Positions 3,622-22,307 of a DNA stretch of 36,870 bases are shown in pieces. Where the stretch lies: NCBI GenBank assembly GCA_002869895.2, contig NEWP02000075.1, positions 1 through 36,870 on the forward strand, written 5' to 3'. A program made the position numbers and the translations under genes. The first letter of the stretch is position 1, and every line of letters begins with the position of its first letter. The notes beneath the pieces are model-generated. The model saw only the letters and a list, made by a program, of their open reading frames with translations. It ran no database searches and was not told the origin of the DNA. Source of the DNA: Nitrospira sp. CG24E. Its GTDB lineage: Bacteria; Nitrospirota; Nitrospiria; Nitrospirales; Nitrospiraceae.

Positions 3622-6600
3622 ATGTCTGCGTATTTACCGCCGGATGCCTCGAAGAGACGGGTGCGCGAAGCGCAAAATGCGCGGAACAATCGCGCGGAGA
3701 TTGTGAAGGCCCTGTCCCAGGGCCAGATTACCAGACGCGATCTCAACAAGTGGGGTCTCTTTACCGCCGCCGGTCTCCTGATCGCCAAGAACGGCTTGAG
3801 CCCCTTCGCCAAGAGCGCCTTTGCCCAGGGTGTGACCGGCGTCCCTCTGACGCCGCTGAACGGCGCCGTTCCATTTTCTCACGCGATGCCGAGGCTCCAT
3901 GATGTGCCGCCGATGCCCCTGACGAAGCTCGTGCAGCCGAACGGCGAGTGGGATGCCCTGTGGCCGGCCAGCCTCCCGCAGGCGGGCCCGGCGGCGAAAC
4001 GGCTCTCCTATCACACAGACTTCAGCGCGCACCAGGCAGGCAATACTCCTTTGAATCCCTTTATCAATCCGATCACGAAGCGGGGCCCCATGGAAGGCCG
4101 CCCGCCAGGCGAATGGTTCGGCCATCAGCGTTGGAAGGAGTTTTTTCCGCAAGTCGGCTATGTCCTGGCGATGGGAGAATGCACGACCGGGACCCGCTTT
4201 CACCAGGCCTGGCCGGATCAAGGGCCAAACAAGGCCTGGCCCATGTATCACTTTGAGGGGTTCGGGCAGCGGGGGAGCTTGCCGATCCCCCTCTTGAAGG
4301 GGCGCTACGGGGAACCGATGGTCATGCGGTTCTTTAACAACCTGCCGGCGGACCGCACGAACAACGGCGGGTTTGGCCGCAATGAGTTTTCCACCCATTT
4401 CCACAATGCCCACAACGGCGCTGAGAGCGATGGCGCCTCCAATGCCTATCACTTCCCTGGAACCTTCTACGACTACCATTGGGGAACGACCCTGGCGCGG
4501 CATGACATGACCATCCGGGACGCTACAGATCGTCGTGCCTCCGGGCCTGACGGCCACGGCGGGTTGATCAATGTGCCCGGCGATTTCCGCGAACTGCAGG
4601 GCACTATGTGGTTCCACGACCACCGGTTTTTCTTCACCGCCGAGAACGTCTACAAGGGCAGCGCTGCGATGATGAACTACTACAGCGGGCCGGACCGGGG
4701 GAATGAAGTCCTCGACGACGGGGTGAACCACCGGCTCCCCAGCGGCAGCCTGCTGGATTGGGGGAACATCGATTTCGACGTGAACCTCTTTATCTCCGAC
4801 GCGGCGACGGATCTGGATGGACAGTATTTCTTCGACATCTTTACGACCGACGGGTTCGTGGGGGATCGGCTGCTGGTCAACTTCGCCTGGAAACCCTACA
4901 TGGAGGTGCTGCCCAGGAAGTATCGGTTCCGTCTCATCGACGGTTCCATGTCGCGGTTTATTCAGATGTGTTTGGCCGATCAGAACGGCAACTTCGTGCC
5001 GTTCCAATTCATCGCCAACGACGGCAACTTTGTCGTCAATCCGATCACGCTGACCCAGCTCGACCAGCAGGGCACGGCGGAACGGTACGACATCGTCGTG
5101 GACTTCTCCCGTTTCCGCCCTGGCGACAAGATCTATCTGGTGAACCTGCTGCAGCAGACAGACGGGCGCAAGCCTGACGGGGCTCTGCCGCTGGCCAGGG
5201 CTCTGGCCCAAGATTCGCCGGACCCTGCCGTCGGGGCCGTGATGGAATTCCGGATCGTGACCGAAGTCGAGAGTGTGGATGTGCCGGGCCATATCCATCG
5301 TGCCAGTGACCCGGATCCGAGTCGCGTGCCTCTGACCTTGACCGAGCAGATTCCCATCGTGGCTCCGGTGCGTGAGCGGCATGTCGAGTTCGGGCGATCC
5401 GGCAACGGGGATTCGCGAGATCTCGTCACGGGGGAGTGCAATCCCGACTGTCCGGAGAATATGCCGTTTCCCTGGACCATCAAGGTCAATGGGGAATCCT
5501 CACACTCCATGAATGCCAACCGCATCTCGCTCTTGATTCCGAAACCGGGTGAGGTCGAACATTGGACCTATCAGAACGGCGGCGGAGGCTGGGACCATCC
5601 GATCCACCTCCACTTCGAAGAGGGTGTGACGATGAATCGGGGCAACGATTCCATTCCGGAGATGGAGCGACTTGTCAGAAAAGATGTCTGGCGGTTGCGG
5701 CCCAGCGGCTCGGTGAAGTTCCAGGTGCGCTTCGGTGAATATGGCGGGGCCTATGTGAACCAGTGCCACAACACGGTCCACGAAGACTTTGCCATGTTGC
5801 TGCGCTACCAGATCCTGACGGATAAGGACAACCCGAATTCCTCGAATGTCCACGTGGACATCATTCCCACGCCGATTCCCTCGCCGGACGGCTGCACCTA
5901 TATGACGCCGGATGTCTTGGCGGAGGGGAACCCCTTGGGGAACCAGGTCACGGTTTCTGCTGCGCCGGTTATCAGTTCGGCGCCGATTCTGGCAGCGACG
6001 GTGGGCGCAGCCTACAGCTACGACGTGAATGCCACTGATGCGAACGGCGATACCCTGACCTACAGCCTGGACACAGCGCCAAGCGGCATGGGTATCAACG
6101 GAGCTTCAGGGCAGATCACATGGGTGCCGACTGTGGGACAGATGGGCGCCAATCCGGTGACGGTGCGGGTGGCGGACCCGAAATCCCTCTTCGCGACCCA
6201 GTCCTTCACTGTCACTGTGGCGCAGACTGCAGTAGCACCGGTGATCACCTCGACGCCGATCCTGACGGCGAAGGTCGGCACCGCCTATCGCTACGACGTG
6301 GACGCCACGGACGCCAACGGCGACGCCTTGGCCTATCGGTTAGTGGCGCCGATCCCGGCCGGCATGACGATCAACCAGACAACCGGGCTGATCAGTTGGA
6401 CGCCTACGGCCAATGGGACGTTCTCTGTGACGGTGCGAGCGACGGATCCGGGCGGTCTGTTTGGCAGCCAGTCGTTCAACGTGTCTGTGACGGCCAATGC
6501 CGCGCCGGTCATTACGTCGCGGCCGCCTCTGACCGGTAAAGTGGGTGTGCCCTACAACTATACGGTGATTGCGACAGATCCCGACGGGGATGCGATCACC

Positions 6601-6768
6601 TATCGCGGTAGTGGGCTCGGCAACCCCGGTAATTTCTCGGTCAACGCGACCACCGGCGTCGTCAGTTGGACGCCGGCGCTGGCGGGGAATATCCGGATCC
6701 GGGTACGGGCGAGCGATACAGCTGGTAAGACGGTCGAGCAGAGCTTCTATGTGCAGGTGGCGGTGTAG
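3622..6768 (+). CDS. Multicopper oxidase 1, Tat-exported, with three cadherin-like domains
   Basis: This 1048-residue protein starts at an ATG 7 bases after GGAGGAGGG. A twin-arginine-type signal (TRRDLNKWG, residues 37-45) is followed by a hydrophobic segment ending near SAFAQ. The multicopper oxidase core spans about residues 130-750. Copper motifs are H259-F-H261, H332-D-H334, HPIHLH at 659-664 and QCHNTVHEDFAM at 714-725. C715, H720 and M725 fit the type-1 copper site. The first residue of the usual HCH triplet is Gln714, so one type-3 His ligand is missing. Residues from about 776 on form three He_PIG/dystroglycan-type cadherin-like domains (each about 87 residues, with DANGD and ITWVPT/ISWTPT motifs). 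The core normally couples substrate oxidation to O2 reduction at the cell surface or periplasm. The substrate (metal, phenolic or cytochrome) cannot be told from sequence. Confidence 0.93.
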   Translation: MSAYLPPDASKRRVREAQNARNNRAEIVKALSQGQITRRDLNKWGLFTAAGLLIAKNGLSPFAKSAFAQGVTGVPLTPLNGAVPFSHAMPRLHDVPPMPLTKLVQPNGEWDALWPASLPQAGPAAKRLSYHTDFSAHQAGNTPLNPFINPITKRGPMEGRPPGEWFGHQRWKEFFPQVGYVLAMGECTTGTRFHQAWPDQGPNKAWPMYHFEGFGQRGSLPIPLLKGRYGEPMVMRFFNNLPADRTNNGGFGRNEFSTHFHNAHNGAESDGASNAYHFPGTFYDYHWGTTLARHDMTIRDATDRRASGPDGHGGLINVPGDFRELQGTMWFHDHRFFFTAENVYKGSAAMMNYYSGPDRGNEVLDDGVNHRLPSGSLLDWGNIDFDVNLFISDAATDLDGQYFFDIFTTDGFVGDRLLVNFAWKPYMEVLPRKYRFRLIDGSMSRFIQMCLADQNGNFVPFQFIANDGNFVVNPITLTQLDQQGTAERYDIVVDFSRFRPGDKIYLVNLLQQTDGRKPDGALPLARALAQDSPDPAVGAVMEFRIVTEVESVDVPGHIHRASDPDPSRVPLTLTEQIPIVAPVRERHVEFGRSGNGDSRDLVTGECNPDCPENMPFPWTIKVNGESSHSMNANRISLLIPKPGEVEHWTYQNGGGGWDHPIHLHFEEGVTMNRGNDSIPEMERLVRKDVWRLRPSGSVKFQVRFGEYGGAYVNQCHNTVHEDFAMLLRYQILTDKDNPNSSNVHVDIIPTPIPSPDGCTYMTPDVLAEGNPLGNQVTVSAAPVISSAPILAATVGAAYSYDVNATDANGDTLTYSLDTAPSGMGINGASGQITWVPTVGQMGANPVTVRVADPKSLFATQSFTVTVAQTAVAPVITSTPILTAKVGTAYRYDVDATDANGDALAYRLVAPIPAGMTINQTTGLISWTPTANGTFSVTVRATDPGGLFGSQSFNVSVTANAAPVITSRPPLTGKVGVPYNYTVIATDPDGDAITYRGSGLGNPGNFSVNATTGVVSWTPALAGNIRIRVRASDTAGKTVEQSFYVQVAV

Positions 6769-6772
6769 GAAT

Positions 6773-6835: not shown

Positions 6836-6919
6836 TGCCGGATTGAAGGGACTGGCTCCTGCCTCTGGCAGGTGCCTGTCCCTGTCTGAGAAACGGGTTT
6901 CGAGTTACCGATTCGACCT

Positions 6920-7030
6920 GAAACTCAAAACGAGATACTCCAAACTAGAAACTCGAAACATGAAACAAGCAACTTCCCCGCGCTTCATGCTTCACGCTTC
7001 ACGTTTCACGTCTCAGGTCTCACGCTTCAC
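6920..7030. repeat. Heptamer arrays running into the SCO-cytochrome coding start
   Basis: Positions 6920-6975 read GAAACTC, AAAACGA, GATACTC, CAAACTA, GAAACTC, GAAACAT, GAAACAA, GCAACTT. After a six-base gap, 6982-7030 reads GCTTCAT, GCTTCAC, GCTTCAC, GTTTCAC, GTCTCAG, GTCTCAC, GCTTCAC. The first array contains the ATG at 6960. The second encodes the residues just before the hydrophobic part of the signal peptide. Its unit is the reverse complement of the GTGAAGC unit used at 7931 and 9248. Confidence 0.85.
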
Positions 7031-7934
7031 GATCTGCGCGCTGCTCCTGTGGGTTTTCTGCGCAGCGCTCACAGCCTCTCCTGCATCTGCCGGGACTTGG
7101 GGCGCTTCCTACATTCCGAACGTACCGCTTGTGACCCAGGACGGGCAGACTGTCCGGCTTTACGACGACTTGATTAAGAACAAGATCGTCTTGATCAACT
7201 TCATCTACGCCAGTTGCAAAGAAGTCTGTCCCCTCGTGACGGCCCGTATGGCACAACTCCAGAAGGCCCTGGGAGACCATGTCGGGCGCGACATCTTTCT
7301 TTACTCGATCACGCTCGATCCGGAGCATGACACGCCGGCGGTGCTGAAGCAGCATGCGAAGGCCTTTCACGCAGGGCCCGGCTGGCTGTTTCTGACAGGA
7401 AAGCCGGAAGACGTCGCCACAGCCCGCTACAAACTCGGAGAGCGTGGGAAGGGTTTGTCGGACCACCGCAACGACGCGATGGCCGGAAATGGCGCAACCG
7501 ATGATTGGGAGCGTACGTCCCTCTTCGAGGATACGGGGAAACTCGCTCTGGTGATGCTCAATATGGATCCGGCATTTCGGGCTAAGAAAGGCAATGTGCC
7601 TGGCAGCGCCTACGCCGATATGTCGCCGGTCCCCTATGTGAACCAGCCGGGGCAAGCCCTCTTCGTCAAGACCTGTGCCTCCTGTCACAGCATCGGACAG
7701 GGTGATTTGGGCGGACCGGATCTCCAGGGAGTGACGTCGAGGAGAGATCGAGCCTGGCTCTCTCAGTTTCTTCAAGCGCCCAATGTGATGCGGGCGAAGA
7801 AGGATCCGATCGCGGTGGCGCTATCCGCAAAGTTCCCCGGCGTCGTCATGCCCAATCTGGGTCTGTCGGAAACGGATGTGGGAGATCTGCTGGCCTATCT
7901 GGACAACAGGACGGCAAGGCTCAGAATGCCGTGA
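6960..7934 (+). CDS. SCO1/SenC-cytochrome c fusion protein
   Basis: With the start at 6960 the product has 324 residues; an ATG at 6987 is an alternative, and neither has a good ribosome site. A signal peptide (ICALLLWVFCAALTASPASA) precedes a SCO1/SenC thioredoxin-like domain with the copper/redox motif CKEVC at residues 86-90 and SITLDPEHDTP further on. The third expected SCO copper ligand, a His, is replaced by Asp in LFEDTGKLALVM. A C-terminal class I cytochrome c domain carries CASCH at 239-243 and a candidate Met ligand in VVMPNLGLSE. SCO proteins deliver copper to oxidases or reduce their thiols. The fused heme suggests an electron-transfer partner. Its place after oxidase 1 suggests it serves that enzyme. 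Confidence 0.88.
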   Translation: MKQATSPRFMLHASRFTSQVSRFTICALLLWVFCAALTASPASAGTWGASYIPNVPLVTQDGQTVRLYDDLIKNKIVLINFIYASCKEVCPLVTARMAQLQKALGDHVGRDIFLYSITLDPEHDTPAVLKQHAKAFHAGPGWLFLTGKPEDVATARYKLGERGKGLSDHRNDAMAGNGATDDWERTSLFEDTGKLALVMLNMDPAFRAKKGNVPGSAYADMSPVPYVNQPGQALFVKTCASCHSIGQGDLGGPDLQGVTSRRDRAWLSQFLQAPNVMRAKKDPIAVALSAKFPGVVMPNLGLSETDVGDLLAYLDNRTARLRMP

Positions 7935-8105: not shown

Positions 8106-9251
8106 ATGCAACGAACATCGATGCTGTTCAATTTTCTCGGTGCGGTTGGGTTGATCGGATTGTTGAGCGGCTGTGGCAGTGGCGGCGGCGGGGCAACCGA
8201 CGGATCCACTGCTGCTAATGCAGCGCCGGCCATCAACTCGGCGCCGCCACTGGATGGGACGCTGACCAAGACGTACAGCTATGACGTGAATGCCACCGAC
8301 GCAGACGGCGATTCCCTTACCTATAGCCTGGTGGCGCCGGTACCCTTCGGTATGACGATCGATCCGGCTACTGGTGTGATCTCATGGACTCCAACGGCTC
8401 AGGAAGGCGACAATCTCGTGACTGTCCAGGTGACGGACGGGAGCCTCTCGTCAACCCAGTCCTTCACCGTAACGGTGGTAGTGGCCCCTAATCAAGTCCC
8501 ACCGGTCTTTATCACCCCAGTTACGCTGCCAGCGGCATTTGAGAACAGCGCCTACAGCACTACCGTCATCGCCGCTGATGGGAACAACGATCCGATCACC
8601 TATAGGTTGACTACGGCTCCGACAGGCTTGGCGATCGACCAAACCTCTGGCGTAATCACCTGGACACCAGATGCAACCCAGATAGGCGACAACACGGTAA
8701 CCCTGGTGGCCACGGCTGGCGGCCAATCACTCAGCCAAGGCTTCACCATCAGAGTGGAAACAGCCACGGCGGCAACCGGCGTGATTTTTGGATTCGACGA
8801 TCTGACGAGGGGTGGCTACAACGTCACGCAGCAAGGCTTCTGGACCACTATCGGTCCGGATGCATTCTCGACATCAAGTGGCTCGGCCATCATCGCGCGA
8901 GGGGACTTGACGGTGATCATAGACAGTCAGGGACGCCCGAGATTTAATAACCCGGAGTTCATGTTTTTAGGCGTGACCCTGATCAACAGGGGAGCCACCG
9001 ATACCACCTTTGCCGTCATCGGCTACAACGATAGTCACGGGGTCACGACTTTTTACTACACAAAGACTCTGAGGGTCGGAGACCCGCCGTTTTCAGTACA
9101 GAACTCTTTCCTCGACAATACCGGTAGACCGATGAACGTGTCGATCGAGCGACTGGAAGTGAATGGAGTCAGTCTGCCTCTGCCTACTCCTGACTTCGGG
9201 GTCCGCTGTCTCGGCGTCGGAACATCCGGAGGCGCTCCCGTCTGTCCGTGA
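8106..9251 (+). CDS. Lipoprotein with two cadherin-like (He_PIG) domains
   Basis: This 381-residue protein begins with a lipoprotein signal (GLIGLLSGC) followed by a Gly-rich linker. Two He_PIG/dystroglycan-type cadherin-like domains follow at about residues 38-125 and 130-215, with DADGDSLTYS, GVISWTPT and GVITWTPD motifs. The last 160 residues (from about TGVIFGFDDLTRGG) are a separate beta-rich domain that I do not recognise. The first cadherin-like domain is close to the first one of oxidase 1, even at DNA level. An outer-membrane anchor or docking partner for the oxidase is a reasonable inference. AGAGAG lies nine bases upstream of the ATG. Confidence 0.8.
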   Translation: MQRTSMLFNFLGAVGLIGLLSGCGSGGGGATDGSTAANAAPAINSAPPLDGTLTKTYSYDVNATDADGDSLTYSLVAPVPFGMTIDPATGVISWTPTAQEGDNLVTVQVTDGSLSSTQSFTVTVVVAPNQVPPVFITPVTLPAAFENSAYSTTVIAADGNNDPITYRLTTAPTGLAIDQTSGVITWTPDATQIGDNTVTLVATAGGQSLSQGFTIRVETATAATGVIFGFDDLTRGGYNVTQQGFWTTIGPDAFSTSSGSAIIARGDLTVIIDSQGRPRFNNPEFMFLGVTLINRGATDTTFAVIGYNDSHGVTTFYYTKTLRVGDPPFSVQNSFLDNTGRPMNVSIERLEVNGVSLPLPTPDFGVRCLGVGTSGGAPVCP

Positions 9252-9488: not shown

Positions 9489-11504
9489 ATGTCCCATCCC
9501 TTCGATAGACGACACCTGCTCAAGTATGGCCTTGCGTCTCTAGGGGCGCTTACGCTCGGCCATTGGCGGCCTCCGGTTCCCCTCTGGAACGGACCGTCTG
9601 AAGCGTCGGCCAAAAGCAGCCCCCCTTCCAACAAGAGTGGAGCGGTCTTCGGCTATAAGCCCTTTTCACAGCCGCTTTTCATCCCGTCGATTGCCCAGTC
9701 CAGGCCGCGCGGCACATTATCGCCGGCGCCGGGCCAGTATCCGCGAGCGGGGGGACCAAGCGGGAGACCCTCTGTCCCTCGCGGGCAATTTGATGATGTG
9801 GCCCATGGCATCGCCCCCGAGTTCGATGGCCGGGTTCCTGGTTTTCCCTGTCCTGACTGGAATCGATTCTCCGGCCATACCCACGAGAAAGAATATCGCA
9901 TTGCCATCGAGGAGACAGTGCAGTCGTTCTTTCCCGGAGTCGACACACCGATTTTTGCCTATCGCGACATCTATGCGGGAGGTCCTGGACGGACGCCGGG
10001 CCCGACCTTCCTGACGCGCTTCCGTGAGCCGGTGGTGGCCCGGTTCGAGAATCACCGCACCAGAAATCGAGTTCCCATCAATACGACCGGCCACGATATC
10101 GAGAGCTCAGTCCATCTTCACGGCTCCCATGTTCCGGCCCATGCGGATGGTGCTCCGGACTTCTATGTCTTGGCAGGAGAGGCGCGAGACTATTACTGGC
10201 CCAACGTCGATCCTCGTCTGGTCCAACCGGATGGACGAGCGAGCAGTGTTGTCGGTCCGTTCGATCCGACCTGGACTCCCTCCACCCTCTGGTACCACGA
10301 CCATGCGATGGATATCACGGGATTCAACGTGAGCCGGGGTCTGGCGGGATTTTATCTGATGTTCGACGAACGAGAAGAACAGTTGATCGAGGACCGGGTG
10401 CTGCCGAATTCGTTTCAAGGATTCGATATCGGGCTGGCCCTGACCGATCAACGGTTCAACGCCGATGGGACGCTCTTCTACGATTTCTTCGACCACAACG
10501 GCCGTCTCGGCGATGTCTTCACCGTCAATGGAACGGTGCAGCCGTTCTTGCAAGTGCAGCGGCGCAAGTACCGGTTTCGAATTTTGAATGCTTCAAATGC
10601 GCGGATCTATCAACTCAGGCTCAGCAACGGCCAGCCGTTCCTCGTGTTCGGGGCCGACACATGGCTCTTCCCCAGGGCCGGTGTCGTGAACAGCTTTGAG
10701 CTTTCCATGGGCCAGCGCCATGACGTGATCATCGATTTCACCCATGCGCCCGACGAAGTATTTCTCGAGAACATCATGCTTCAAACGAACGGGCGCAAGG
10801 GGGATGGGGTGGATCCCAAGAAACCCACGCCTCTGATGAAGTTTGTCGTCACCGGAGCTCCGGTGGCCAACGACGTCATCGTCGACGACGGCACGGTGAT
10901 TCGAGATCGATGGGAACCGATTCCAGACCATGACGTCGCTGCGGCTCGGACCTTCGTATTCGATCGTTCCCTCGGGGCCTGGACGATCAACGGCCGGTTT
11001 TTCAATCCGAGACGAGCGGATGCGGTTCCTGAACTGGGCAGCACCGAGGAATGGACCGTCGAAAACGGTGGAGGAGGCTGGTGGCATCCGATCCACACGC
11101 ACCTTGAGGGGTTTCAGATCAAGTCGCTTAACGGAAAGACTCCGCCCTTTGAACGGTCGTTCAACAGCGATCTGGTCATGCTCCACGGGGGCGAAGTCGC
11201 TAGGGTCTTGATGAGGTTTCGTACCTTTACCGGCCCCTATTCCTTTCACTGTCACAACGTCGAGCATGAGGATATGAGAATGATGGGGTTCCATGACCCC
11301 AGGCCGCTCGGGCAACCGAGCCCGCTCGATGGAGAGGCCAGGATCGATGCGGAGGTCTCCGGGGTTGTGCCGGATTGTACGGAGCTGGAAGAGGAGCAGC
11401 GCATCTATTTCGATGCAGCAGGGGATCTGGACCGGGTCAACGGACGAGGTGTCGGTTTCCCCGAGTGCGAGTTCGATAACGACAAGAGGGGCAATCAATT
11501 GTGA
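9489..11504 (+). CDS. Multicopper oxidase 2, Tat-exported
   Basis: The ATG at 9489 is preceded by AGGTGG at 9478-9483. A GTG at 9480 is in frame but overlaps that site. The 671-residue product has a Tat-type signal (DRRHLLKYGLASLGALTLG). All four copper motifs are present: H209-L-H211, H270-D-H272, HPIHTH at 533-538 and HCHNVEHEDMRM at 587-598, giving C588, H593 and M598 for the type-1 site and complete His pairs for the trinuclear cluster. There is no extra C-terminal domain. It should oxidise a substrate with O2 outside the cytoplasm. It resembles bilirubin oxidase or CotA-like three-domain enzymes, but the substrate is not evident. The SCO lipoprotein gene overlaps its stop codon. Confidence 0.93.
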   Translation: MSHPFDRRHLLKYGLASLGALTLGHWRPPVPLWNGPSEASAKSSPPSNKSGAVFGYKPFSQPLFIPSIAQSRPRGTLSPAPGQYPRAGGPSGRPSVPRGQFDDVAHGIAPEFDGRVPGFPCPDWNRFSGHTHEKEYRIAIEETVQSFFPGVDTPIFAYRDIYAGGPGRTPGPTFLTRFREPVVARFENHRTRNRVPINTTGHDIESSVHLHGSHVPAHADGAPDFYVLAGEARDYYWPNVDPRLVQPDGRASSVVGPFDPTWTPSTLWYHDHAMDITGFNVSRGLAGFYLMFDEREEQLIEDRVLPNSFQGFDIGLALTDQRFNADGTLFYDFFDHNGRLGDVFTVNGTVQPFLQVQRRKYRFRILNASNARIYQLRLSNGQPFLVFGADTWLFPRAGVVNSFELSMGQRHDVIIDFTHAPDEVFLENIMLQTNGRKGDGVDPKKPTPLMKFVVTGAPVANDVIVDDGTVIRDRWEPIPDHDVAAARTFVFDRSLGAWTINGRFFNPRRADAVPELGSTEEWTVENGGGGWWHPIHTHLEGFQIKSLNGKTPPFERSFNSDLVMLHGGEVARVLMRFRTFTGPYSFHCHNVEHEDMRMMGFHDPRPLGQPSPLDGEARIDAEVSGVVPDCTELEEEQRIYFDAAGDLDRVNGRGVGFPECEFDNDKRGNQL

Positions 11505-12136
11505 GGCTGCCGGCTCCCCACTGGTTATGGGGGGTTCTGCTTCTCCTGGCCTGTGCGGGCCTTGGAATCATCTCTGCCTGTGCGCCGACCCATCCTCTCG
11601 GCGCGAAACCAGATGCATCCCCCGGTCCCACGGCGTCCGCTTTTCCCAACATTCTCCTGCTGACGCAGGAAAACAAACAGGTCCGTTTCTACGACGACTT
11701 GGTCAAGGGCAAGACGGTCCTTGTGAAATTCATCTACACAAGCTGCGAGAAAAGCTGCAGCCCGACCACAGCGAATCTTGCGCGGATGCATGGATTGTTG
11801 GGTGATCGTATCGGCCGCGATCTGGTTCTGCTCTCGATCTCTCTGGACCCGACAGTGGACCGGCCTGCAAAGCTCAAAGAATATGCGGCTCGCTTCGGGC
11901 AATTTCAGGGCTGGTATTTCCTGACCGGAAACGACGTGGACATCGACGGTCTGCGCCGGAAGCTGGGCCTGTACGACCTCGACACAGCTATCGACGGAGA
12001 CAAAACGCAACATGCCGGGATTGTCGTGATCGGGAACGACGTGACCAACCGGTGGTCTTCAATGCCGGCTCTGATGGATCCCAGGCAGCTCGCCCAGACG
12101 CTGCTCCGGATCGCCAGAAACGGCAGGGACGGCTAG
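11501..12136 (+). CDS. SCO1/SenC family lipoprotein
   Basis: The GTG at 11501 overlaps the stop codon of oxidase 2, with AAGAGGGG about ten bases upstream. The 211-residue product has a lipoprotein signal ending in GIISAC, then a SCO/thioredoxin fold. CEKSC at residues 82-86 is the copper/redox pair and H171 (in QHAGIVVIG) is the expected third ligand, so unlike the fusion protein upstream this copy is complete. SISLDPTVDRP is the conserved SCO segment. The overlap argues for translational coupling and a dedicated copper-loading or thiol-reducing role for oxidase 2. Confidence 0.92.
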   Translation: MRLPAPHWLWGVLLLLACAGLGIISACAPTHPLGAKPDASPGPTASAFPNILLLTQENKQVRFYDDLVKGKTVLVKFIYTSCEKSCSPTTANLARMHGLLGDRIGRDLVLLSISLDPTVDRPAKLKEYAARFGQFQGWYFLTGNDVDIDGLRRKLGLYDLDTAIDGDKTQHAGIVVIGNDVTNRWSSMPALMDPRQLAQTLLRIARNGRDG

Positions 12137-12138
12137 CT

Positions 12139-12159: not shown

Positions 12160-12307
12160 GCGAGACTCGCGCGACAGGCGAGAAAAGCGGGACTGGTCTG
12201 ATCTGGTTCATCTGGTTTGTTTCGTTTGTCTAGTTTCTCTGGCCTATCGACTCCTCCGGTTCAACCAAACAAACGAAATAAACCAAATAAACTAAACAAA
12301 CTAGCTT
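12160..12307. repeat. Nonamer arrays of both families, partly inverted
   Basis: Positions 12160-12195 read GCGAGACTC, GCGCGACAG, GCGAGAAAA, GCGGGACTG, matching the array at 9362. Positions 12205-12240 read GGTTCATCT, GGTTTGTTT, CGTTTGTCT, AGTTTCTCT. Positions 12263-12307 read AACCAAACA, AACGAAATA, AACCAAATA, AACTAAACA, AACTAGCTT, the GGTTTGTTT family on the other strand. The last two arrays can form an imperfect hairpin. Confidence 0.75.
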
Positions 12308-12384
12308 GGCCCGCTCGACTCCCCCTACCGTTGGGGCTAGTCCGGTCCCTCGAACGAAGGGGCAATGCCCCGCCAGAGAGGGGA

Positions 12385-12413
12385 TTGTGCGATTTACGAA
12401 CCACCCATACTAT
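12385..12413 (+). promoter_or_regulatory. Candidate sigma-70-like promoter for the secretion operon
   Basis: TTGTGC at 12385-12390 and TACTAT at 12408-12413 are 17 bp apart and point toward gspG. Both boxes match the consensus only partly (3/6 and 4/6). The region from 12308 to 12505 has no gene and contains small hairpins such as CACCAG/CTGGTG near 12427-12442. A start near 12420 would leave a leader of about 85 bases. Confidence 0.3.
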
Positions 12414-12505
12414 CGCTTATCGGCTTATCACCAGACCACTGGTGCCACTGGATATTGTACCGGGACGATTAGGAAAAACCGGACCACTAACGTAAAGGAG
12501 CGACC

Positions 12506-14152: not shown

Positions 14153-15846
14153 GCCGCACCGAACAGGCGATCGCCGGTCAGGAAGGGTTCTCGCCGAGCG
14201 AGTTGGCGCTCGCGAAGGCCGATGCCGTTCGCGCAAAGCGGCGCATGATCGAAGCATTGGACGATCAGTTTCAGTTGAGCCACGATGAGTTTGCCGCGAA
14301 ACTGGCCGCGACCCTCCGTTACCGTTGGCTGGACCAGAAATCTCTCCAAGCCTGTGAGGCAGATTTCAGCCGGATTTCCTATCCCGAGACAGTGGCGCAC
14401 GAATGTCTGCCGTTCCGCGATGAGCAGGGTCTCCTCTGCGTGGCATTTTGCGATCCATTCGATCCGGCCAGGCAGGCCTGGGCAAATGAACAGCTGCGGG
14501 AATCCGCCCTGTGGGTCCTGGTCCATCGTGTAGCGTTGCTCTCGATGTTCGCGAAGTACGAGGCGAGAGCCCGCGCGATGGACGACGTGATGGCGCTCGA
14601 TCCGGAGCGACGGAGGGTGTCCGAGGCGATCGAAGACCTGTCGATCAAATCGATCAGCGAAGGAACCAGCCCCGTGGTCAAGCTGGTGCATTCGACGATT
14701 TACGATGCGTTCAAGCTCGGCGCCAGCGACATCCATCTTGAAGCCGGCACGTCGGATCTGACGATCAAGTATCGCATCGACGGGGTGCTCTTAAAAGTAA
14801 AGGTGGTGGAAGGCAAGGAAATGGCCGAGCAGGCGATCTCCCGTATCAAGGTCATGTCGGAACTGGACATTTCCGAGCGGCGCATTCCCCAGGACGGCCG
14901 GTTCAAGCTGGCGGTCCTCGGCCGCGCCGTGGACTTCCGGGTGTCGGTGATGCCCAGCATCCATGGAGAAGACTCGGTCATCCGTATCCTCGACAAACAG
15001 TCGCTGTCGCAGCAGAGTCAGGGGCTCCGGCTGGATATGATCGGCTTCGACGAGCAGACGGTGACGCAGATTCGCGGACTCGCCTCCGAGCCCTACGGCT
15101 TGATGCTGGTCACAGGCCCCACTGGAAGCGGAAAAACGACTTCTCTCTATGCCGTGCTCAATGAGCTGAACCAGGGCCAGGACAAAATCATCACGATCGA
15201 AGATCCGGTGGAATATCAGCTGCCGGGAATTCTGCAGATTCCCGTCAATGAAAAGAAGGGCTTGACCTTTTCGCGCGGCCTGCGCTCGATCCTGCGTCAC
15301 GACCCGGACAAGATCATGGTCGGAGAAATCCGGGATTCGGAAACCGCTCAGATCGCCGTCCAGTCGGCTTTGACCGGGCACCTGGTCTTGGCGACGGTCC
15401 ATGCCAACAATGTGCTGGACATCATCGGGCGATTCATCCACATGGGGGTGGAACCCTATAATTTCGTCTCGGCCTTGAACGGGGTCATTGCGCAACGTCT
15501 CTTGCGCGTCCTCTGCTCCCATTGTGTCGAGCCCTACCGCCCCGACAGCAAACTGCTGGCCGCGTCACGGCTGACCGAAGCGGAGGCGGCGGACTTCAAC
15601 TTTCGAACCGGACGTGGCTGCAAGGACTGTTATGGAACCGGGTACAAGGGACGCCGGGCCATTGCCGAGGTGCTGCTGCTCACCGACGAGATTCGCGAAC
15701 AGATCGTCGCCAAAGAGCCGATCCGCAAGATCAAGGACACGGCGCGGGCCACCGGCACGCGATTTCTCCGGGACTCCGCAATGGATCTCGTTCGTCAAGG
15801 CATCACCACGTTGGAGGAGATCAACCGTGTTACCTTTGTTGGCTGA
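14149..15846 (+). CDS. gspE: Type II secretion ATPase GspE
   Basis: The ATG at 14149 overlaps the gspF stop (ATGA). The frame is open further upstream, but only as a shadow of gspF. The product has 565 residues. The N-terminal domain covers about residues 1-150. The Walker A motif is GPTGSGKTT at 323-331, followed by the Asp and His boxes (ITIEDPVEYQL, GLTFSRGLRSILRHDPD), Walker B-like IMVGEIRD and GHLVLATVHAN. A zinc-binding pair, C456-S-H-C459 and C491-K-D-C494, is typical of GspE and PilB. It supplies ATP hydrolysis energy to the pseudopilus on the cytoplasmic face. Confidence 0.96.
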   Translation: MSRTEQAIAGQEGFSPSELALAKADAVRAKRRMIEALDDQFQLSHDEFAAKLAATLRYRWLDQKSLQACEADFSRISYPETVAHECLPFRDEQGLLCVAFCDPFDPARQAWANEQLRESALWVLVHRVALLSMFAKYEARARAMDDVMALDPERRRVSEAIEDLSIKSISEGTSPVVKLVHSTIYDAFKLGASDIHLEAGTSDLTIKYRIDGVLLKVKVVEGKEMAEQAISRIKVMSELDISERRIPQDGRFKLAVLGRAVDFRVSVMPSIHGEDSVIRILDKQSLSQQSQGLRLDMIGFDEQTVTQIRGLASEPYGLMLVTGPTGSGKTTSLYAVLNELNQGQDKIITIEDPVEYQLPGILQIPVNEKKGLTFSRGLRSILRHDPDKIMVGEIRDSETAQIAVQSALTGHLVLATVHANNVLDIIGRFIHMGVEPYNFVSALNGVIAQRLLRVLCSHCVEPYRPDSKLLAASRLTEAEAADFNFRTGRGCKDCYGTGYKGRRAIAEVLLLTDEIREQIVAKEPIRKIKDTARATGTRFLRDSAMDLVRQGITTLEEINRVTFVG

Positions 15847-16681
15847 CCAGCTCAGCATCCTCATGTGTCCCGAGTGGTTGCTGGTGGCGCATCGCCCCCG
15901 AGGTTTTCGCCCGGGACCGATGACGACGACTACGGTGCCGGTGGCTGCTTCGTCCGAGGGCTCCGCCGGATGGGAGCCGGCTGCCGCAGCATTGGAAGCC
16001 CTCTTGGCGGCCAATCCCCAGTGGCGAGGGGCATCGCTCCGGATCATTCTCTCCAACCATTTTGTCCGCTACGTCTTGGTGCCCTGGAGCAACGACTTAA
16101 GCAACGAGAAGGAACATTTGGTGCTTGCGCGGCGCCATTTCGCCTTGACCCATGGACCGGTCGCCAAAAACTGGGCGATCCGGATGAGCCTCGACAGGCC
16201 CGGCGAATGCCATGTCGCCAGCGCGCTGGACGAGTCTCTGGTGAGCCGGCTGACCCTGGCGGCAGCGGCGGGCCATTTGACGCTCACCAGCTTGGAACCA
16301 TTGCTCATGGCATCGTTTAACCGATGGCAGCAGGACTTTCGCGAAGAGTCCCAGTGGTTTGTGACTGTGGAGAACGGCATGTTGTGCGGCGCCCTGGTCG
16401 GTCGTCACCGCTGGATCGCGCTGCGGCGCTGGCGGATACAGGACGACTGGGCGTCGGAGTTGTCTCTGTGGCTTTCGCGTGAGCAATTGATCGGCGAGGA
16501 GTCTGTCCCGGTCGGGGCCGTGTATCTTTTGGCGCCTCCCCATGCGGGCGCCCATTCAATGGCTATGGGACCACGCTTGAGATTTCTTGGTGAGGACGAT
16601 CGCAATAATTACCGGAACGGGACGATGGACCGAGGCGCCAAAGCGGTTGAAGAGGCAGGGTATCTCTCATGCATTCTTTAA
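15827..16681 (+). CDS. PilM/GspL/MshI-like cytoplasmic assembly protein
   Basis: The GTG at 15827 is chosen because GGAGGA lies eight bases upstream; the gene overlaps gspE by 20 bases. The 284-residue product has no membrane segment. Its body (RIILSNHFVRYVLVPWSNDL, ALDESLVSRLTLAAAAGHL) resembles the actin-like cytoplasmic domain of GspL or MshI/PilM, although actin-like nucleotide motifs are weak. Position between the ATPase and a PilN-like gene supports a role linking GspE to the inner-membrane ring. The assignment is partly from context. Confidence 0.7.
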   Translation: MLPLLADQLSILMCPEWLLVAHRPRGFRPGPMTTTTVPVAASSEGSAGWEPAAAALEALLAANPQWRGASLRIILSNHFVRYVLVPWSNDLSNEKEHLVLARRHFALTHGPVAKNWAIRMSLDRPGECHVASALDESLVSRLTLAAAAGHLTLTSLEPLLMASFNRWQQDFREESQWFVTVENGMLCGALVGRHRWIALRRWRIQDDWASELSLWLSREQLIGEESVPVGAVYLLAPPHAGAHSMAMGPRLRFLGEDDRNNYRNGTMDRGAKAVEEAGYLSCIL

Positions 16682-17214
16682 GGCTCGACTATACCGACCG
16701 GGCGGTTCTGTGGACCGGCCAGGGAGTTGTGTGGTTGGCTGTCGGCCTCCTGCTGGTGGCCATAACCGGATCCTACTACTGGTATCTCGCGGAAGAGACC
16801 GCCCTTGTGGCGGACAAGATCGAGGCAGCCAGGCAGCATACGGGACGGGAGCGGATGGGCAAGGAAAAGTTGACGGAGGAACTGAAGACCTTTCGCGCCG
16901 ACATCAAGGAATCCCAGACGGTGTTGGGACAGCTCACGATTCCCTGGGATCCGCTCTTCATCGCAGTGGAACAGGTCGGGGGCAGACATATCGACCGCAT
17001 CGCCCTGATGGCTATTCATCCGGACGTAGGGGAGCAGCGAGTGGTGATCGAGGGCCGATCGGCCGACTTCGAGGTGTTGATGGACTTTGTGACGCAGTTG
17101 GCGGAATTCGACATCATCCGTCACGCGTATCTCAGCAGGCATCAGAGGGAAGACAAGGACCGCGAGAAGCCAGTGCGATTTTCAATCGTGGCGGAATGGA
17201 ACGTACGATCATGA
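16669..17214 (+). CDS. PilN-like inner-membrane assembly protein
   Basis: This 181-residue protein starts at an ATG that overlaps the end of the previous gene by 13 bases. A short cytoplasmic start (MHSLRLDYTDR) is followed by one membrane segment (VVWLAVGLLLVAITGSYYW, about residues 20-38), a coiled-coil-like stretch to about residue 85, and a ferredoxin-like periplasmic domain with QRVVIEGRSADFEVLMDFV. This is the PilN / GspL C-terminal architecture. It should pair with the preceding cytoplasmic protein and the following PilO-like protein. Confidence 0.8.
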   Translation: MHSLRLDYTDRAVLWTGQGVVWLAVGLLLVAITGSYYWYLAEETALVADKIEAARQHTGRERMGKEKLTEELKTFRADIKESQTVLGQLTIPWDPLFIAVEQVGGRHIDRIALMAIHPDVGEQRVVIEGRSADFEVLMDFVTQLAEFDIIRHAYLSRHQREDKDREKPVRFSIVAEWNVRS

Positions 17215-18032
17215 ACTTCGGGAGCTTTCTCAGATCGACCGGAATGGGAACGGCGGTCGGTAATTCTAGGCCGAAGCTCAAGCAGGCCCGCCTTCTGCGG
17301 CGCATGCCGAGCCGGTGGATCGAGGTCCTGGCAGCTCGAATCGCAGGCCCCGGGAAAACCGGACCAGCTCCGTCGCCGGTGGAGCGCTTGGGGTGGGCTC
17401 GTCGATTCTGGAAACAGCAGGTGGGAGATTCTGGCATCAAGGGCAGAGAGATCTCCAAGGCCAAGCCAAGCCTTCCGTCAATGAGCCATCTGAGCTGGGC
17501 TCTGAGGCTCTGGGTGCAGCGCCTCGGGGTTTCGGGCGCTGTGGGTCTGGGACTTCTCGCGTTTGCCGCGATGTTTTATCTGTCCGCCGTCCTTACCCTC
17601 GAGGCAGAACAGGCGCAGATCCTTGAAGAGCTCGAATCTTCTCTGACGCATGTCCGGAAAGCAGGGGGGGCTCCCACCGTGGCTCCCAGGACTCCCAGCG
17701 AACAACTGGCTGACTTCTATGCCATTTTCCCCCCTGTCGATCAGGCGCCGGAGACATTGCGGAAGATCAATCAATTGGCTGAGAAGCAGCATTTGGTTCT
17801 ACAGGCAGGCAATTACCACGTGATCGACGACCACACAGGCCGCCTGATCCGCTATGAAGCGTCGCTGCCGTTGGTCGGCTCCTATCCGAACGTGCGCCAG
17901 TTCTTGCGGACGGTGTTGGCCGAGATTCCCAGTGCGGCTCTCGAAAAGGTGAATGTCGAGAAGAACATGATGGGCGGGGCTCAGGCCAAGACCACGGTCA
18001 GTTTTACTCTGTTCATGAGGAGAGACAGCTGA
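17211..18032 (+). CDS. PilO-like protein with a long basic cytoplasmic extension
   Basis: The ATG at 17211 overlaps the previous stop codon. An in-frame ATG at 17196 is an alternative. The product has 273 residues. One membrane segment lies at about 107-129 (GAVGLGLLAFAAMFYLSAVL). The periplasmic part has a coiled coil and a PilO/GspM-like domain (FPPVDQAPETLRKINQLAEK, SYPNVRQFLRTVLAEIP). The first 105 residues are unusually long and basic for PilO and contain two related blocks, residues 60-78 and 94-112, each with a LxWAxRxW start and GxSG ending. The extension is not explained by the family. Confidence 0.78.
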   Translation: MNFGSFLRSTGMGTAVGNSRPKLKQARLLRRMPSRWIEVLAARIAGPGKTGPAPSPVERLGWARRFWKQQVGDSGIKGREISKAKPSLPSMSHLSWALRLWVQRLGVSGAVGLGLLAFAAMFYLSAVLTLEAEQAQILEELESSLTHVRKAGGAPTVAPRTPSEQLADFYAIFPPVDQAPETLRKINQLAEKQHLVLQAGNYHVIDDHTGRLIRYEASLPLVGSYPNVRQFLRTVLAEIPSAALEKVNVEKNMMGGAQAKTTVSFTLFMRRDS

Positions 18033-18631
18033 TGGTCTCCGTCGCTCCAAAATACTTGATGCTCGCTTCCCTTGTGGCGGGGCTTCTTGAGGCTGCCACC
18101 GGGTTCGCCGGCAGCCAGGCAGTGAGCCCTCAGGGGAATCTCGGTCTCGATCTCGGAAAGCTGAATCAGCGGGTGACCAAGAATAACGTCTACGATATGT
18201 TTCCGGGGGGCATCAGACCCGAGAGCTCGGCGCAGGCTCCTTCCGCCTCCTCCAAACAAGAGGAGCCTCGCTCGAAGGGCAAATCCAAACGGGGTGGGTC
18301 TCATGCTGTGTCCCTGCCTCCGCCCCTGTTGCTAAGCCCTGCCGTCGTTGAGGAGGTTCCGTCCGTCGAGATCGAACCGATTGTGATCGAGCCGCTGCCG
18401 CCCGTCGTCATCCCGACACCGCCTTTCCCGTTCAAATTTGCGGGGGTCCAGAGACAACCGTCCGGGCAGACGATCTATTTTCTGACCAAGGACAACAGAC
18501 TGTATACCGTCGAGGTCGGTCAAATCCTCGACTCGGTGTATTCCATCGATGGTGAAGAAGGCGGTCAACTGACCGTGACCTATCTGCCGTTGGATCGTAA
18601 GCAAACCATTAGCATGGGGTTGGCAACATGA
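18032..18631 (+). CDS. PilP/GspC-like periplasmic coupling protein
   Basis: The 199-residue product starts in a TGATG overlap with the previous gene. An N-terminal hydrophobic stretch (YLMLASLVAGLLEAATGFAG) is followed by a Ser/Lys-rich and then a Pro-rich linker (VEIEPIVIEPLPPVVIPTPP). The C-terminal beta domain, FKFAGVQ...TIYFLTKDNRLYTVEVGQ, resembles the PilP / GspC HR domain that contacts the secretin. The stop overlaps the start of gspD, which supports the role of linking the inner-membrane complex to the outer-membrane channel. Confidence 0.75.
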   Translation: MVSVAPKYLMLASLVAGLLEAATGFAGSQAVSPQGNLGLDLGKLNQRVTKNNVYDMFPGGIRPESSAQAPSASSKQEEPRSKGKSKRGGSHAVSLPPPLLLSPAVVEEVPSVEIEPIVIEPLPPVVIPTPPFPFKFAGVQRQPSGQTIYFLTKDNRLYTVEVGQILDSVYSIDGEEGGQLTVTYLPLDRKQTISMGLAT

Positions 18632-20811
18632 CACGCTTCACTCGCGCGACGTTTGGGACAAGCATCCTCGGCTGTGCCTTCCTCGCCGCCTTGCTGGCCG
18701 GCTGCAGCGCCAACCAGCTCTTCAACGAGGGGATGTCGGACATCAATGCCGGACGCTTGGATGTCGGATTGGCCAAGATCGAAGACGCGGTGAGAAAGGA
18801 CCCCGACAGTTCCTTTCTGCAGACTCAACTGCGTATGAAGCGAGAGTATGTGGCTCAGCGATTCATTCAGGATGCGGATGCGGCCCGAGCGGCCTCTAAT
18901 TTCACCGAGGCCCGCCGGCTCTATCAAGCCGCGCTGGAACTGGACCGGGCCAATCAGCAGGCGTTGGCAGGCCTCGAGTCGACGAAGAATGCGGAACTGA
19001 GTCAGATCGAGATCCGGATGGCCAAGGATCTGATCGGCCACAACGACCTCAAGGAAGCTCAGGCGCAACTGGCGCATATTTTGAGCACGGACCCGAATAA
19101 CTTCGAAGCGAAGCAGCTGCTGAACAATCTTCTCGCGCAAACCCCGCCGCCAGAACCGGCCAAGCCGAGGCTGCGCTTGAAAGACGATCGCATCTCCGTG
19201 CTGCAGTTCCGCGAGTCTCCGCTGGGTATGGTGTTCGAGGCGCTCTCGCGAACGAGCGGCATCAATTTCGTGCTCGATAAAGATGTGAAGAGCGATGCCA
19301 AAACGAATATTTTCGTGAAGGACATGCTGGTCGAGTCGGCCTTGGATATGGTCCTGGCTCAACATGGGCTGGAGAGAAAACTCCTGGCCGACAATATCGT
19401 CTTGATCTTTCCCGACACGCCGGATAAACGGCGGCGCTACGAAGAGCAGATGGTCAAGTCCTTTCACCTCACGAATGCGGACCCGAAGCAGGCGATGAGC
19501 ATGTTGAAGGTGATGCTGGACATTAAATCGCTGTTCATCGACGAGCATGCGCGATTGCTGGTCATGCGGGATACGCCGGAAGTGGTCAAGATGGCGGAGA
19601 AGCTCCTGGTCTCCCTCGATCTGGAAGACGCCGAAGTCATGATGGAAGTGGATATCGTGGAGATCACACGTTCGAAGCTGCAGGAGCTCGGTATCAAGTA
19701 TCCGAGCCAAGTGACTCTCAATGTGCTCGCTCCTACCGTGGCCGGCGCTGCCACAGGCGGCGCGGCCCAGGCGCTGAATACGCTTAGCAGCCTTCGGTTC
19801 AGCGACCACAACACATCGATTTCGAGCCTCGGGGCGACGATTAACCTCAAGAGGGAAGACTCCGATGTCAATATCCTGTCCAGCCCGAAGATCAGGGCAA
19901 GGAATTATGAAAAGGCCAAGATTCATATCGGAGACCGTGTTCCGGTCTTTACCAACGCTGTGACGCCCATCATCGGCGGGACCGGCAGCGTGGTCACCGG
20001 CAGCGTGACCTATCTCGATATCGGATTGAAATTCGATGTGGAACCGACGATCTATCAGGACGACGAAGTGTCCATGAAGCTGAACCTGGAAGTGAGCAGC
20101 ATCGTGAAGGAGGTCACCCAAGGGTCAAGCTTGTCCTATCAGGTCGGCACGAGGGCCGCCTCGACCGTATTGCGATTGCGGGACGGAGAAACGCAGATCC
20201 TGGCAGGGCTGATCAGCGATGCAGACCGTGAGACGGCCAGCAAGGTGCCGGGACTCAGTAATATTCCGGTCCTCGGGCGGCTCTTCACCTCCGTGAAAAC
20301 CGACAAGACCAAACAAGAGATTGTGCTGTCGATCACACCCCACGTCATCCGGCATGGTAAGCGCCCCAGCGCCTGGTCGTCTGAAATTTTGTACGGCACT
20401 GAAAGTTCTCGTGGCATTCCCATGACGATCAAGGTGGGTGAGGGCGAGCGTAAATCCTTCGTGGAAGCCAAGGGGGCCTCAGCCGCATCAGGAGCCGCCA
20501 TTGTGACAACGGGGGCGACCGTTACCGGAAGTCCCTCCGAGAGCCAAGTTCGAAATGAGCCGATCCCTGCCTCAGACGTGGATAGTACGAGGAAAGGAGC
20601 CCGCCGTAAGGGCGCAAGTCAGGCTCCGGCTGTGACCATACTGGAGGCGGTTCCAGGAAGTCCTTCTGAAAGTCCGGTTCGCAATGAAACAACTCCTGCT
20701 ACAGACTCGGCAGGAACGAAGAAAGGCGCGGTGGAAGACCCCTCTGAGAGTCCGGCTCAAAATCAGCCGGCTCCGGCTGAAGGAACAGACCATGCGGGGC
20801 AGACTCCATGA
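18628..20811 (+). CDS. gspD: Outer-membrane secretin GspD (lipoprotein)
   Basis: The 727-residue product has a lipoprotein signal with Cys26 (AALLAGC). Residues 30-170 form TPR-like helices, as in MSHA-type secretins. An STN/N0-like domain follows (about 185-270, ISVLQFRESPLGMVFEALSR), then an N1-like domain with FHLTNADPKQAMSMLKVML. The secretin barrel covers about 350-580 (VPVFTNAVTPIIGGTGSVVT, LDIGLKFDVEPTIYQDDEVS, RDGETQILAGLISD). After residue 600 comes a low-complexity tail with three diverged copies of a PSES-VRNE-PA motif. It forms the gate through which folded substrates leave the periplasm. The start overlaps the previous stop. Confidence 0.94.
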   Translation: MTRFTRATFGTSILGCAFLAALLAGCSANQLFNEGMSDINAGRLDVGLAKIEDAVRKDPDSSFLQTQLRMKREYVAQRFIQDADAARAASNFTEARRLYQAALELDRANQQALAGLESTKNAELSQIEIRMAKDLIGHNDLKEAQAQLAHILSTDPNNFEAKQLLNNLLAQTPPPEPAKPRLRLKDDRISVLQFRESPLGMVFEALSRTSGINFVLDKDVKSDAKTNIFVKDMLVESALDMVLAQHGLERKLLADNIVLIFPDTPDKRRRYEEQMVKSFHLTNADPKQAMSMLKVMLDIKSLFIDEHARLLVMRDTPEVVKMAEKLLVSLDLEDAEVMMEVDIVEITRSKLQELGIKYPSQVTLNVLAPTVAGAATGGAAQALNTLSSLRFSDHNTSISSLGATINLKREDSDVNILSSPKIRARNYEKAKIHIGDRVPVFTNAVTPIIGGTGSVVTGSVTYLDIGLKFDVEPTIYQDDEVSMKLNLEVSSIVKEVTQGSSLSYQVGTRAASTVLRLRDGETQILAGLISDADRETASKVPGLSNIPVLGRLFTSVKTDKTKQEIVLSITPHVIRHGKRPSAWSSEILYGTESSRGIPMTIKVGEGERKSFVEAKGASAASGAAIVTTGATVTGSPSESQVRNEPIPASDVDSTRKGARRKGASQAPAVTILEAVPGSPSESPVRNETTPATDSAGTKKGAVEDPSESPAQNQPAPAEGTDHAGQTP

Positions 20812-21293
20812 ACGTAGTGAGCAAATCGGAGCGAGGCTTTACGCTGGTGGAGATGGTCATGACGGTGGCGATCGTCGGAGTGCTGGCCTCGGCTGCCATG
20901 CCCCTTGCCAGCTTGGTATCGCAACGCAGCAAAGAGCAGGAACTCCGGCAATCGCTGCTGCAGATTCGCGAGGCCATCGATGCTCATCGACGAGATTTCG
21001 ATGCCGGGCGCATTGCCAAAGGCACGACGGATTCGGGATATCCCAAGACGCTGAAGGACCTCACGGAGGGGGTCGTCGATCAGACGAGTCAGAAGAAGAA
21101 GCGATTGATCTATCTGCGCCGGATGCCGCGAGACCCATTGCACATGGATCAGTCAGTGTCGGCCGAACAGACCTGGGGACTCAGGAGCTACGAGAGTCCC
21201 CCGGATGAGCCGAGCCCCGGCAGCGACGTCTTCGATGTCTATTCTCTCAACAAGGGTGTCGGGTTGAACGGTATCCCCTATTCGAAGTGGTAA
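20808..21293 (+). CDS. Minor pseudopilin (second pilin-like protein)
   Basis: The start overlaps the gspD stop. The 161-residue product has a short leader (MNVVSKSERG), then FTLVEMVMTVAIVGVLASAA with Glu15 at mature position +5. The body includes DSGYPKTLKDLTEGV, RRMPRDPL and a C-terminal GSDVFDVYSLNKGVGLNGIP segment that resembles the GspG-type loop. It is probably a minor pseudopilin of the tip or shaft. The subtype (H, I or J) cannot be assigned. Confidence 0.88.
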   Translation: MNVVSKSERGFTLVEMVMTVAIVGVLASAAMPLASLVSQRSKEQELRQSLLQIREAIDAHRRDFDAGRIAKGTTDSGYPKTLKDLTEGVVDQTSQKKKRLIYLRRMPRDPLHMDQSVSAEQTWGLRSYESPPDEPSPGSDVFDVYSLNKGVGLNGIPYSKW

Positions 21294-21307
21294 CGGGTGA
21301 TGTGGTG

Positions 21308-21697
21308 ATGAAGCCAGTCGATCGAAAGGGCACAGAGGGATTCACACTCATTGAGCTGCTGGTGGTCCTGGCCATCGTCTCGACGTTGTTGACCTTGGCC
21401 GTGCCCCGATATTTCTCCAGTGTGCAGCGGTCCAAAGAAGTCGTCATGAAGGAGAATCTTTGGATCATGAGGGACGCCCTGGATAAGTATTTCGGCGACT
21501 CCGGACGGTATCCAGACCAGCTCCAAGAGCTGGCCACCAAGAAATATCTCCGCGCGATTCCCATCGATCCGCTCACTGAGACGGCGGCGAGCTGGCGTGT
21601 GATTCCGCCAGACGATCCTGAGAAAGGCGGCGTCTACGACGTCAAAAGCGGAGCGGAGGGGACCGACACGGGAGGGAGCTCCTACAGTGAATGGTAA
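21308..21697 (+). CDS. GspG-like pseudopilin (third pilin-like protein)
   Basis: The ATG at 21308 gives a short leader, MKPVDRKGTEG, then FTLIELLVVLAIVSTLLTLA with Glu16 at +5. The 129-residue product has YPDQLQELATKKYLRAIPID and a C-terminal GGVYDVKSGAEG...YSEW. It is close in design to the preceding protein, suggesting a tandem duplication. A GTG at 21287 is in frame but lies inside the previous gene. It belongs to the same operon. Confidence 0.86.
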   Translation: MKPVDRKGTEGFTLIELLVVLAIVSTLLTLAVPRYFSSVQRSKEVVMKENLWIMRDALDKYFGDSGRYPDQLQELATKKYLRAIPIDPLTETAASWRVIPPDDPEKGGVYDVKSGAEGTDTGGSSYSEW

Positions 21698-22307
21698 CGG
21701 CCGTGGAGTACCAGTTCTGCGGAAGATGAGCGGCAGCCTGTATCGGTGCCCGCCGGTACGATCGCAGGAAGGGTTCAGCTACATCGGGATCCTGCTTGTG
21801 ATCGCCCTCGTCGGGGTTCAGTTGGGCCTGGCCGGAGTGGTATGGAGTTTTGCGCAGGCCCGTCAGAAGGAGCGAGAGTTGCTGTTTGTCGGAGGCCAGT
21901 TCAGAACCGCCATTAGTCAATACTACCTGAACCCCAAAGGCCCTCAGAAGGAATATCCCCGCCGCCTGGATGATCTGCTCAAAGATCCACGCTATCCGGG
22001 AACAGTTCGCCACCTGCGAAAAATTTATGCCGACCCGATCACCGGGAAGAAACAATGGGGGCTGGTGAAACTCCCGAACGGCGGCATTGTCGGAGTCTAT
22101 AGCCTCTCGGAAAAGGAGCCGATCAAGACCGGAAACTTTCGGCCTGCGGACATATCCTTTACGAGAAAACAACGGTATTCCGAATGGAAATTCGTGCATG
22201 CGTTCGGGACAACGAACGTTGCTGCTCCCGGTTCTCCCGGCACAGCGGCTGTTCCTGCTCTCTCGTCCGACCCTCAAATACACAATGGGGAAGACGAGGA
22301 GAAATAG
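21687..22307 (+). CDS. Atypical minor pseudopilin lacking Glu+5 (GspK-like feature)
   Basis: This gene overlaps the previous one by 11 bases. The 206-residue product has a long 29-residue leader ending in EG, then FSYIGILLVIALVGVQLGLA. Position +5 is Gly34 instead of Glu. In type II systems the tip subunit GspK normally lacks Glu+5, so this may fill that role, although the protein is shorter than GspK. The body has YYLNPKGPQKEYPRRLDDLL and YADPITGKKQWGLV, similar to the two upstream pseudopilins, and a low-complexity Ala/Pro/Ser tail. It is the last gene of the operon. Confidence 0.8.
   Translation: MNGNGRGVPVLRKMSGSLYRCPPVRSQEGFSYIGILLVIALVGVQLGLAGVVWSFAQARQKERELLFVGGQFRTAISQYYLNPKGPQKEYPRRLDDLLKDPRYPGTVRHLRKIYADPITGKKQWGLVKLPNGGIVGVYSLSEKEPIKTGNFRPADISFTRKQRYSEWKFVHAFGTTNVAAPGSPGTAAVPALSSDPQIHNGEDEEK

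Follow-up and report, generated by a model that had tools for sequence, protein, structure and literature searches.

A type II secretion operon with separate PilM, PilN, PilO, and PilP proteins adjoins its probable multicopper oxidase cargo in a Nitrospira lineage

Secretion of OmpB by Geobacter sulfurreducens is reported to require a Pul system with three pseudopilins, PulG, OxpG, and TklG (Mehta et al. 2006, through PMC3543383), and the ompB cluster holds mofC-like, cytochrome, and SCO genes (PMC5566968). The MofABC cluster of Leptothrix and the OmpB/MofA clusters of iron oxidizers combine a multicopper oxidase (MCO) with cytochrome c and often with SCO (PMC5566968). The route by which large copper oxidases leave Gram-negative cells is known in outline, from one organism. 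Here, we describe a locus of Nitrospira sp. CG24E in which MCO and SCO genes precede type II secretion (gsp) genes. The window analyzed (36,870 nucleotides; NEWP02000075.1, C73 in our numbering) is one whole contig of a Nitrospira-like metagenome-assembled genome (3.45 Mb; 98% complete). Type II secretion systems (T2SSs) export folded proteins from the periplasm, the Tat pathway also exports folded proteins, and SCO proteins are copper chaperones. No linked locus was described in the open-licence papers found on MofA or on MCOs with type II secretion.

An initial sequence-only reading had proposed that two oxidases, SCO proteins, and a co-oriented gsp run lie together, and Pfam searches confirmed this gene content. 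We consider it likely that the run encodes a T2SS of the PilMNOP type, that neighboring genes encode its cargo, and that, in the clade of the window, this cargo consists of surface MCOs, because gsp operons of the clade are repeatedly found beside such oxidases. Trees were inferred from GspE, GspD, and GspF under LG+C20 and, additionally, with FastTree. Under LG+C20, all MCO-linked loci formed one clade of 13 rows, including a Gallionella copy without a flank (SH-aLRT, 89), and the link label changed twice on the tree versus a mean of 7.5 after shuffling (0 of 500 shuffles were as low). An MCO was present in the upstream flank of 9/9 in-clade loci with an assembled flank versus 1/34 outside the clade (Fisher, 2e-8; 1e-5 with near-copies thinned). 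These counts were tallied by hand, and MCOs were called with home-made profiles, motifs, and homology, by which divergent oxidases may be overlooked. The gsp lineage appears to travel with MCO cargo across two phyla, which suggests delivery of the oxidases to the cell surface.

The Nitrospira gsp copies were nested inside betaproteobacterial ones, and those of type A are closely related to one another, as would also be expected of a horizontally moved island whose oxidase and secretion genes were co-inherited without a functional link. We regard such hitchhiking as very unlikely, since the oxidases found next to this one gsp clade belong to three or more different sets and since, in Massilia horti (four gsp copies) and Rubrivivax A210 (five gsp copies), no MCO was found in the portion of the flanks examined for the other copies.

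The association was also evident within the Nitrospira lineage, where the predicted conservation of the oxidase-SCO-gsp order was borne out. MCO1, MCO2, and GspD were sought in 147 genomes of the order, and the family set comprised 175 genomes. The same five of the 147 order genomes hold MCO1 (at least 81%), MCO2 (at least 78%), and GspD (at least 77%), and the order is kept in four genomes (G123, G104, G066, and G271), whose flanks beyond the block are only partly common; conservation in these genomes argues that the order reflects more than chance. MCO1 orthologs occurred in 10/175 family genomes, namely, in all nine with GspD at 66% identity or more versus 1 of the 166 others, the latter being a fragment in a fragmented, 81% complete assembly (Fisher P, 3e-14, with members that are partly close relatives from three genera). 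In a genome of another genus (G255), MCO1 and the SCO-cytochrome c gene directly precede gspG, without MCO2. MCOs stood directly upstream of gspG in 7/7 Nitrospiraceae copies with assembled flanks, two unrelated oxidase sets being represented among them. As a control, 20 divergent paralogous T2SS loci of the same taxonomic order were inspected, and 0/20 had an MCO or SCO in a 20-kb interval around GspD. The letters RSF, probably for rapid sand filter, appear in the record names of several carriers.

Five genes, all identified with Pfam, form the block upstream of the gsp genes.

3622..6768, plus strand: MCO1, putative cargo (1,048 amino acids; Cu-oxidase_2 and three C-terminal He_PIG immunoglobulin-like [Ig] domains).
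6960..7934, plus strand: SCO1/SenC-cytochrome c fusion (SCO1-SenC), putative copper chaperone/electron shuttle.
8106..9251, plus strand: He_PIG Ig-domain lipoprotein, between the two oxidase pairs.
9489..11504 (alternative start, 9480), plus strand: MCO2, putative cargo (also by PDB relatives and motifs).
11501..12136, plus strand: SCO1/SenC protein, overlapping the end of MCO2.

Each oxidase is indeed followed by an SCO-type protein, as the sequence-only reading had it, although the first is fused to cytochrome c (its open reading frame [ORF] opens at 6843, and the probable start at 6960 was taken from ortholog starts) and the Ig lipoprotein is an additional fifth gene. Both oxidases have twin-arginine-type starts (TRRDLNKWG in MCO1 and DRRHLLKYG in MCO2), and MCO2 has all four copper motifs. 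The nearest solved relatives of MCO1 in the PDB are bilirubin oxidase and CotA. Orthologs of the Ig lipoprotein are ~680 amino acids long with DUF5666, a part that the window copy lacks. In G104 and G271 (L066, L067, L213, and L214), the oxidase island is longer, extending upstream beyond MCO1 with genes for another (third) MCO, SCO, and large proteins of Ig type.

The gsp run, which begins 369 bases after the second SCO gene, consists of eleven genes rather than the nine originally counted.

12506..12955, plus strand: gspG, major pseudopilin (Pfam T2SSG; NCBIfam GspG equivalog, 179 bits; cut-off, 88.85).
12962..14152, plus strand: gspF, inner-membrane platform (Pfam T2SSF; under the GspF equivalog cut-off).
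14149..15846, plus strand: gspE, ATPase with MshEN domain (Pfam T2SSE).
15863..16681 (upstream start at 15833 possible), plus strand: PilM-like protein, actin-like by predicted fold.
16669..17214, plus strand: PilN-like protein (weak Pfam PilN match, E 2.6e-4, just short of the cut-off).
17211..18032, plus strand: PilO-like protein (by position and homology; a betaproteobacterial homolog weakly matches T2SSM/PilO).
18032..18631, plus strand: PilP-like protein (C-terminal domain fold like those of PilP and GspC).
18628..20811, plus strand: gspD-type secretin with N-terminal TPR (Pfam secretin; nearest PDB relatives GspD).
20808..21293, plus strand: pseudopilin 1 (Pfam N_methyl).
21287..21697 (probable start, 21308), plus strand: pseudopilin 2 (Pfam N_methyl).
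21687..22307, plus strand: pseudopilin 3 (weak GspH-type N terminus; position kept in homologous operons).

The PilM-, PilN-, PilO-, and PilP-like proteins had no Pfam matches in a first pass. The PilM-like call was confirmed by the predicted fold (AlphaFold pLDDT, 86.7), for which the best Foldseek match was Pseudomonas PilM (E 2e-11), followed by cyto-EpsL. The modeled PilP-like domain matched PilP and GspC with a probability of 1.00 but with E values of >0.01. The locus has the T2SS parts GspG, GspE, GspF, and secretin, with GspE, GspF, and GspD scoring under the equivalog cut-offs.

Because PilM, PilN, PilO, and PilP are separate proteins, as in type IV pili, and GspE scores nearly as well as PilB, the operon might instead build a filament resembling a type IV pilus that serves in adhesion or electron transfer, with the oxidases as unrelated neighbors or carried on the filament. 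This explanation is highly improbable: GspG exceeds the T2SS GspG equivalog cut-off, the PDB relatives of the secretin are GspD first, and the locus showed no gene for a retraction ATPase.

Related operons elsewhere lie beside other oxidases or other secreted proteins. In the homologous gsp operon of Nitrospira CG24D (G135), with GspD at 49% and GspG at 82%, gspG is preceded by genes for a subtilase-like protein, a 185-amino-acid protein, two cupredoxin/MCO proteins, and a 2,133-amino-acid Ig protein. The same set plus a cytochrome and SCO precedes the gsp genes of the betaproteobacterium Massilia horti, with matches of 1,179 bits for the giant protein, 408 bits for the MCO, and 333 bits for the subtilase. 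In CTSoil_122, the gene for a 1,611-amino-acid MofA-type oxidase that bears fn3 lies directly upstream of gspG, along with genes for an FKBP isomerase, a cytochrome c protein, and SCO; in Rubrivivax A210, a cluster with the same four kinds of gene lies directly downstream of the pseudopilins. Of 50 gsp-bearing genomes surveyed, only three had MofA-type genes, which were gsp adjacent in two. Four betaproteobacterial loci have an SCO gene no more than 2.7 kb before gspG, versus ~0.1 expected from SCO density.

The sequence-only reading had also suggested a system dedicated to oxidases. The condition that it named as refuting this, wide conservation of the operon without adjacent oxidases, applies to the operon family, which a scan with pseudopilin 1 found to be chiefly betaproteobacterial, but not to the clade, in which an oxidase accompanied every assembled upstream flank. 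Most betaproteobacterial copies had no MCO detected within 20 kb upstream and lie beside genes for other secreted proteins; therefore, the family as a whole is not oxidase specific, and the idea that it is was dropped after the betaproteobacterial survey. The nonoxidase neighbors include a lamin-tail nuclease-type protein, an fn3 subtilase, an esterase, and a protein of fn3 type whose gene overlaps gspG, and those of plasmid copies include RHS, IPT/TIG, and FG-GAP proteins. The large secreted proteins encoded beside operons of this family are probably the cargo. In Burkholderia ambifaria, a plasmid typed conjugative (L248; NZ_CP086300.1) carries a homologous operon with RHS and IPT/TIG genes next to it, a location consistent with horizontal spread of the family.

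He_PIG/Big_9 proteins in the Nitrospira and Massilia clusters, together with the fn3, RHS, FG-GAP, nuclease, and subtilase genes beside out-of-clade relatives, raise the alternative that the gsp system exports Ig-domain surface proteins (the lipoprotein, the giant proteins, and the subtilase) and that the oxidases are periplasmic fellow travelers of the same pathway. We consider this unlikely, since the oxidase and SCO genes are constant in the clade whereas the Ig proteins encoded apart from them differ between loci (G066, for example, has no Ig lipoprotein), MCO1 itself bears Ig domains at its C terminus, and the fn3-bearing protein of the MofA clusters is the oxidase itself.

The gsp genes probably have their own promoter, judging from a conserved upstream sequence.

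12344..12413, plus strand: conserved promoter-like element upstream of gspG (inverted repeats, then TTGTGC-N17-TACTAT).

The inverted repeats and TTGNNN-N17-TACTAT were present in 6/6 orthologous loci, with a spacing of always 17, even where the preceding gene differs. Nothing resembling the element was found anywhere else in the window. A consensus promoter scan gave no hits above chance and missed the conserved element itself, and Rfam searches of the whole window and of the region upstream of gspG returned no family matches at threshold. An ORF at 12217-12495, which overlaps the element, was rejected as a gene. Because the gsp genes carry their own promoter-like element, the single export locus first proposed is better described as a neighborhood and is probably not one operon.

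We infer the following route. The eleven gsp genes would encode a type II machine with PilM, PilN, PilO, and PilP as separate proteins, belonging to an operon family that would move horizontally. The Tat pathway would carry MCO1 and MCO2 across the inner membrane, and the two SCO proteins would help load copper in the periplasm. The GspG pseudopilus would then push the oxidases through the GspD pore to the cell surface, and their attachment there may depend on the Ig domains. The oxidase substrate can only be guessed, by analogy with MofA/OmpB relatives, to be Mn(II) or Fe(II). The broader proposal of a horizontally spread, oxidase-dedicated PilMNOP T2SS branch, with at least three MCO sets in two phyla and giving Nitrospira extracellular Mn/Fe oxidation, is possible but doubtful.

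Several observations weigh against the oxidases being the cargo. Neighborhood is not proof of cargo; the subtilases, giant Ig proteins, and Ig lipoproteins of the same clusters could be exported instead, and the gsp genes have a promoter-like element of their own. In G095, the SCO-cytochrome c gene adjoins an MCO1 relative on a contig, the one examined, without gsp, and one of the two MCO1 copies of G066 is unlinked. Within the HCHxxxH copper motif, residue 714 of the window MCO1 (5761-5763) is Gln (CAG) in place of the His of its orthologs; the copy may be impaired, or the codon may be an assembly variant. The SH-aLRT of the clade is not starred, and its most distant row is a long branch. FastTree recovered the same clade at 0.92 with Rubrivivax A210 outside, and the out-of-clade L152/G192 also has SCO upstream of gspG.

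Other genes adjoin the locus on the far side.

22434..23756, minus strand: MauG/MbnH-like diheme enzyme (CCP_MauG; MbnH-family model, 257 bits; cut-off, 363).

This gene, a possible accessory, is convergent with the gsp genes and also adjoins them in G123 and G271. On the Burkholderia plasmid (L248), a gene for a cytochrome c peroxidase likewise lies near gspG. At 24020-26497 (minus strand), a compact run of CsgG, DUF4810, and GNA1162-like genes adjoins the locus and is common to G123.

The presence of probable cargo, including MofA-type clusters, beside the gsp operons of this clade makes the export route of large copper oxidases testable in cultured Betaproteobacteria and suggests that the oxidases of nitrifying Nitrospira may act outside the cell.

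Compared with the canonical T2SS (GspC-GspO), the window likewise has GspG, GspF, GspE, and GspD. The canonical system has a fused GspL, GspM, and GspC; the window has PilM and PilN as separate proteins, with PilO and PilP instead of the latter two, and pseudopilins 1 to 3 are not assignable to GspH-K. No peptidase gene was found in the window gsp locus. Two members of the gsp clade, CTSoil_122 and Rubrivivax A210, have MofABC-like clusters next to their gsp genes, but the window MCOs are not MofA type: OmpB/MofA proteins are very large MCOs with an fn3-type domain, and MCO1 has He_PIG domains. The proposed analogy to OmpB was not supported by MCO1 and MCO2 themselves, which are bilirubin oxidase/CotA-like, but was supported by gene context, through which the two MofA/OmpB-type clusters tie this type of operon to the OmpB story. 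The window has gspG plus three pseudopilins versus the Geobacter set of PulG, OxpG, and TklG, compared by description; a PDB search with the window pseudopilins did not find an OxpG entry. Pul/OxpG of Geobacter is an atypical T2SS needed for a multicopper oxidase, and the ompB cluster likewise includes a cytochrome and an SCO chaperone. The Geobacter pul genes lie by cell division and DNA uptake genes with ompB elsewhere, whereas in the window the cargo candidates are adjacent to the secretion genes.

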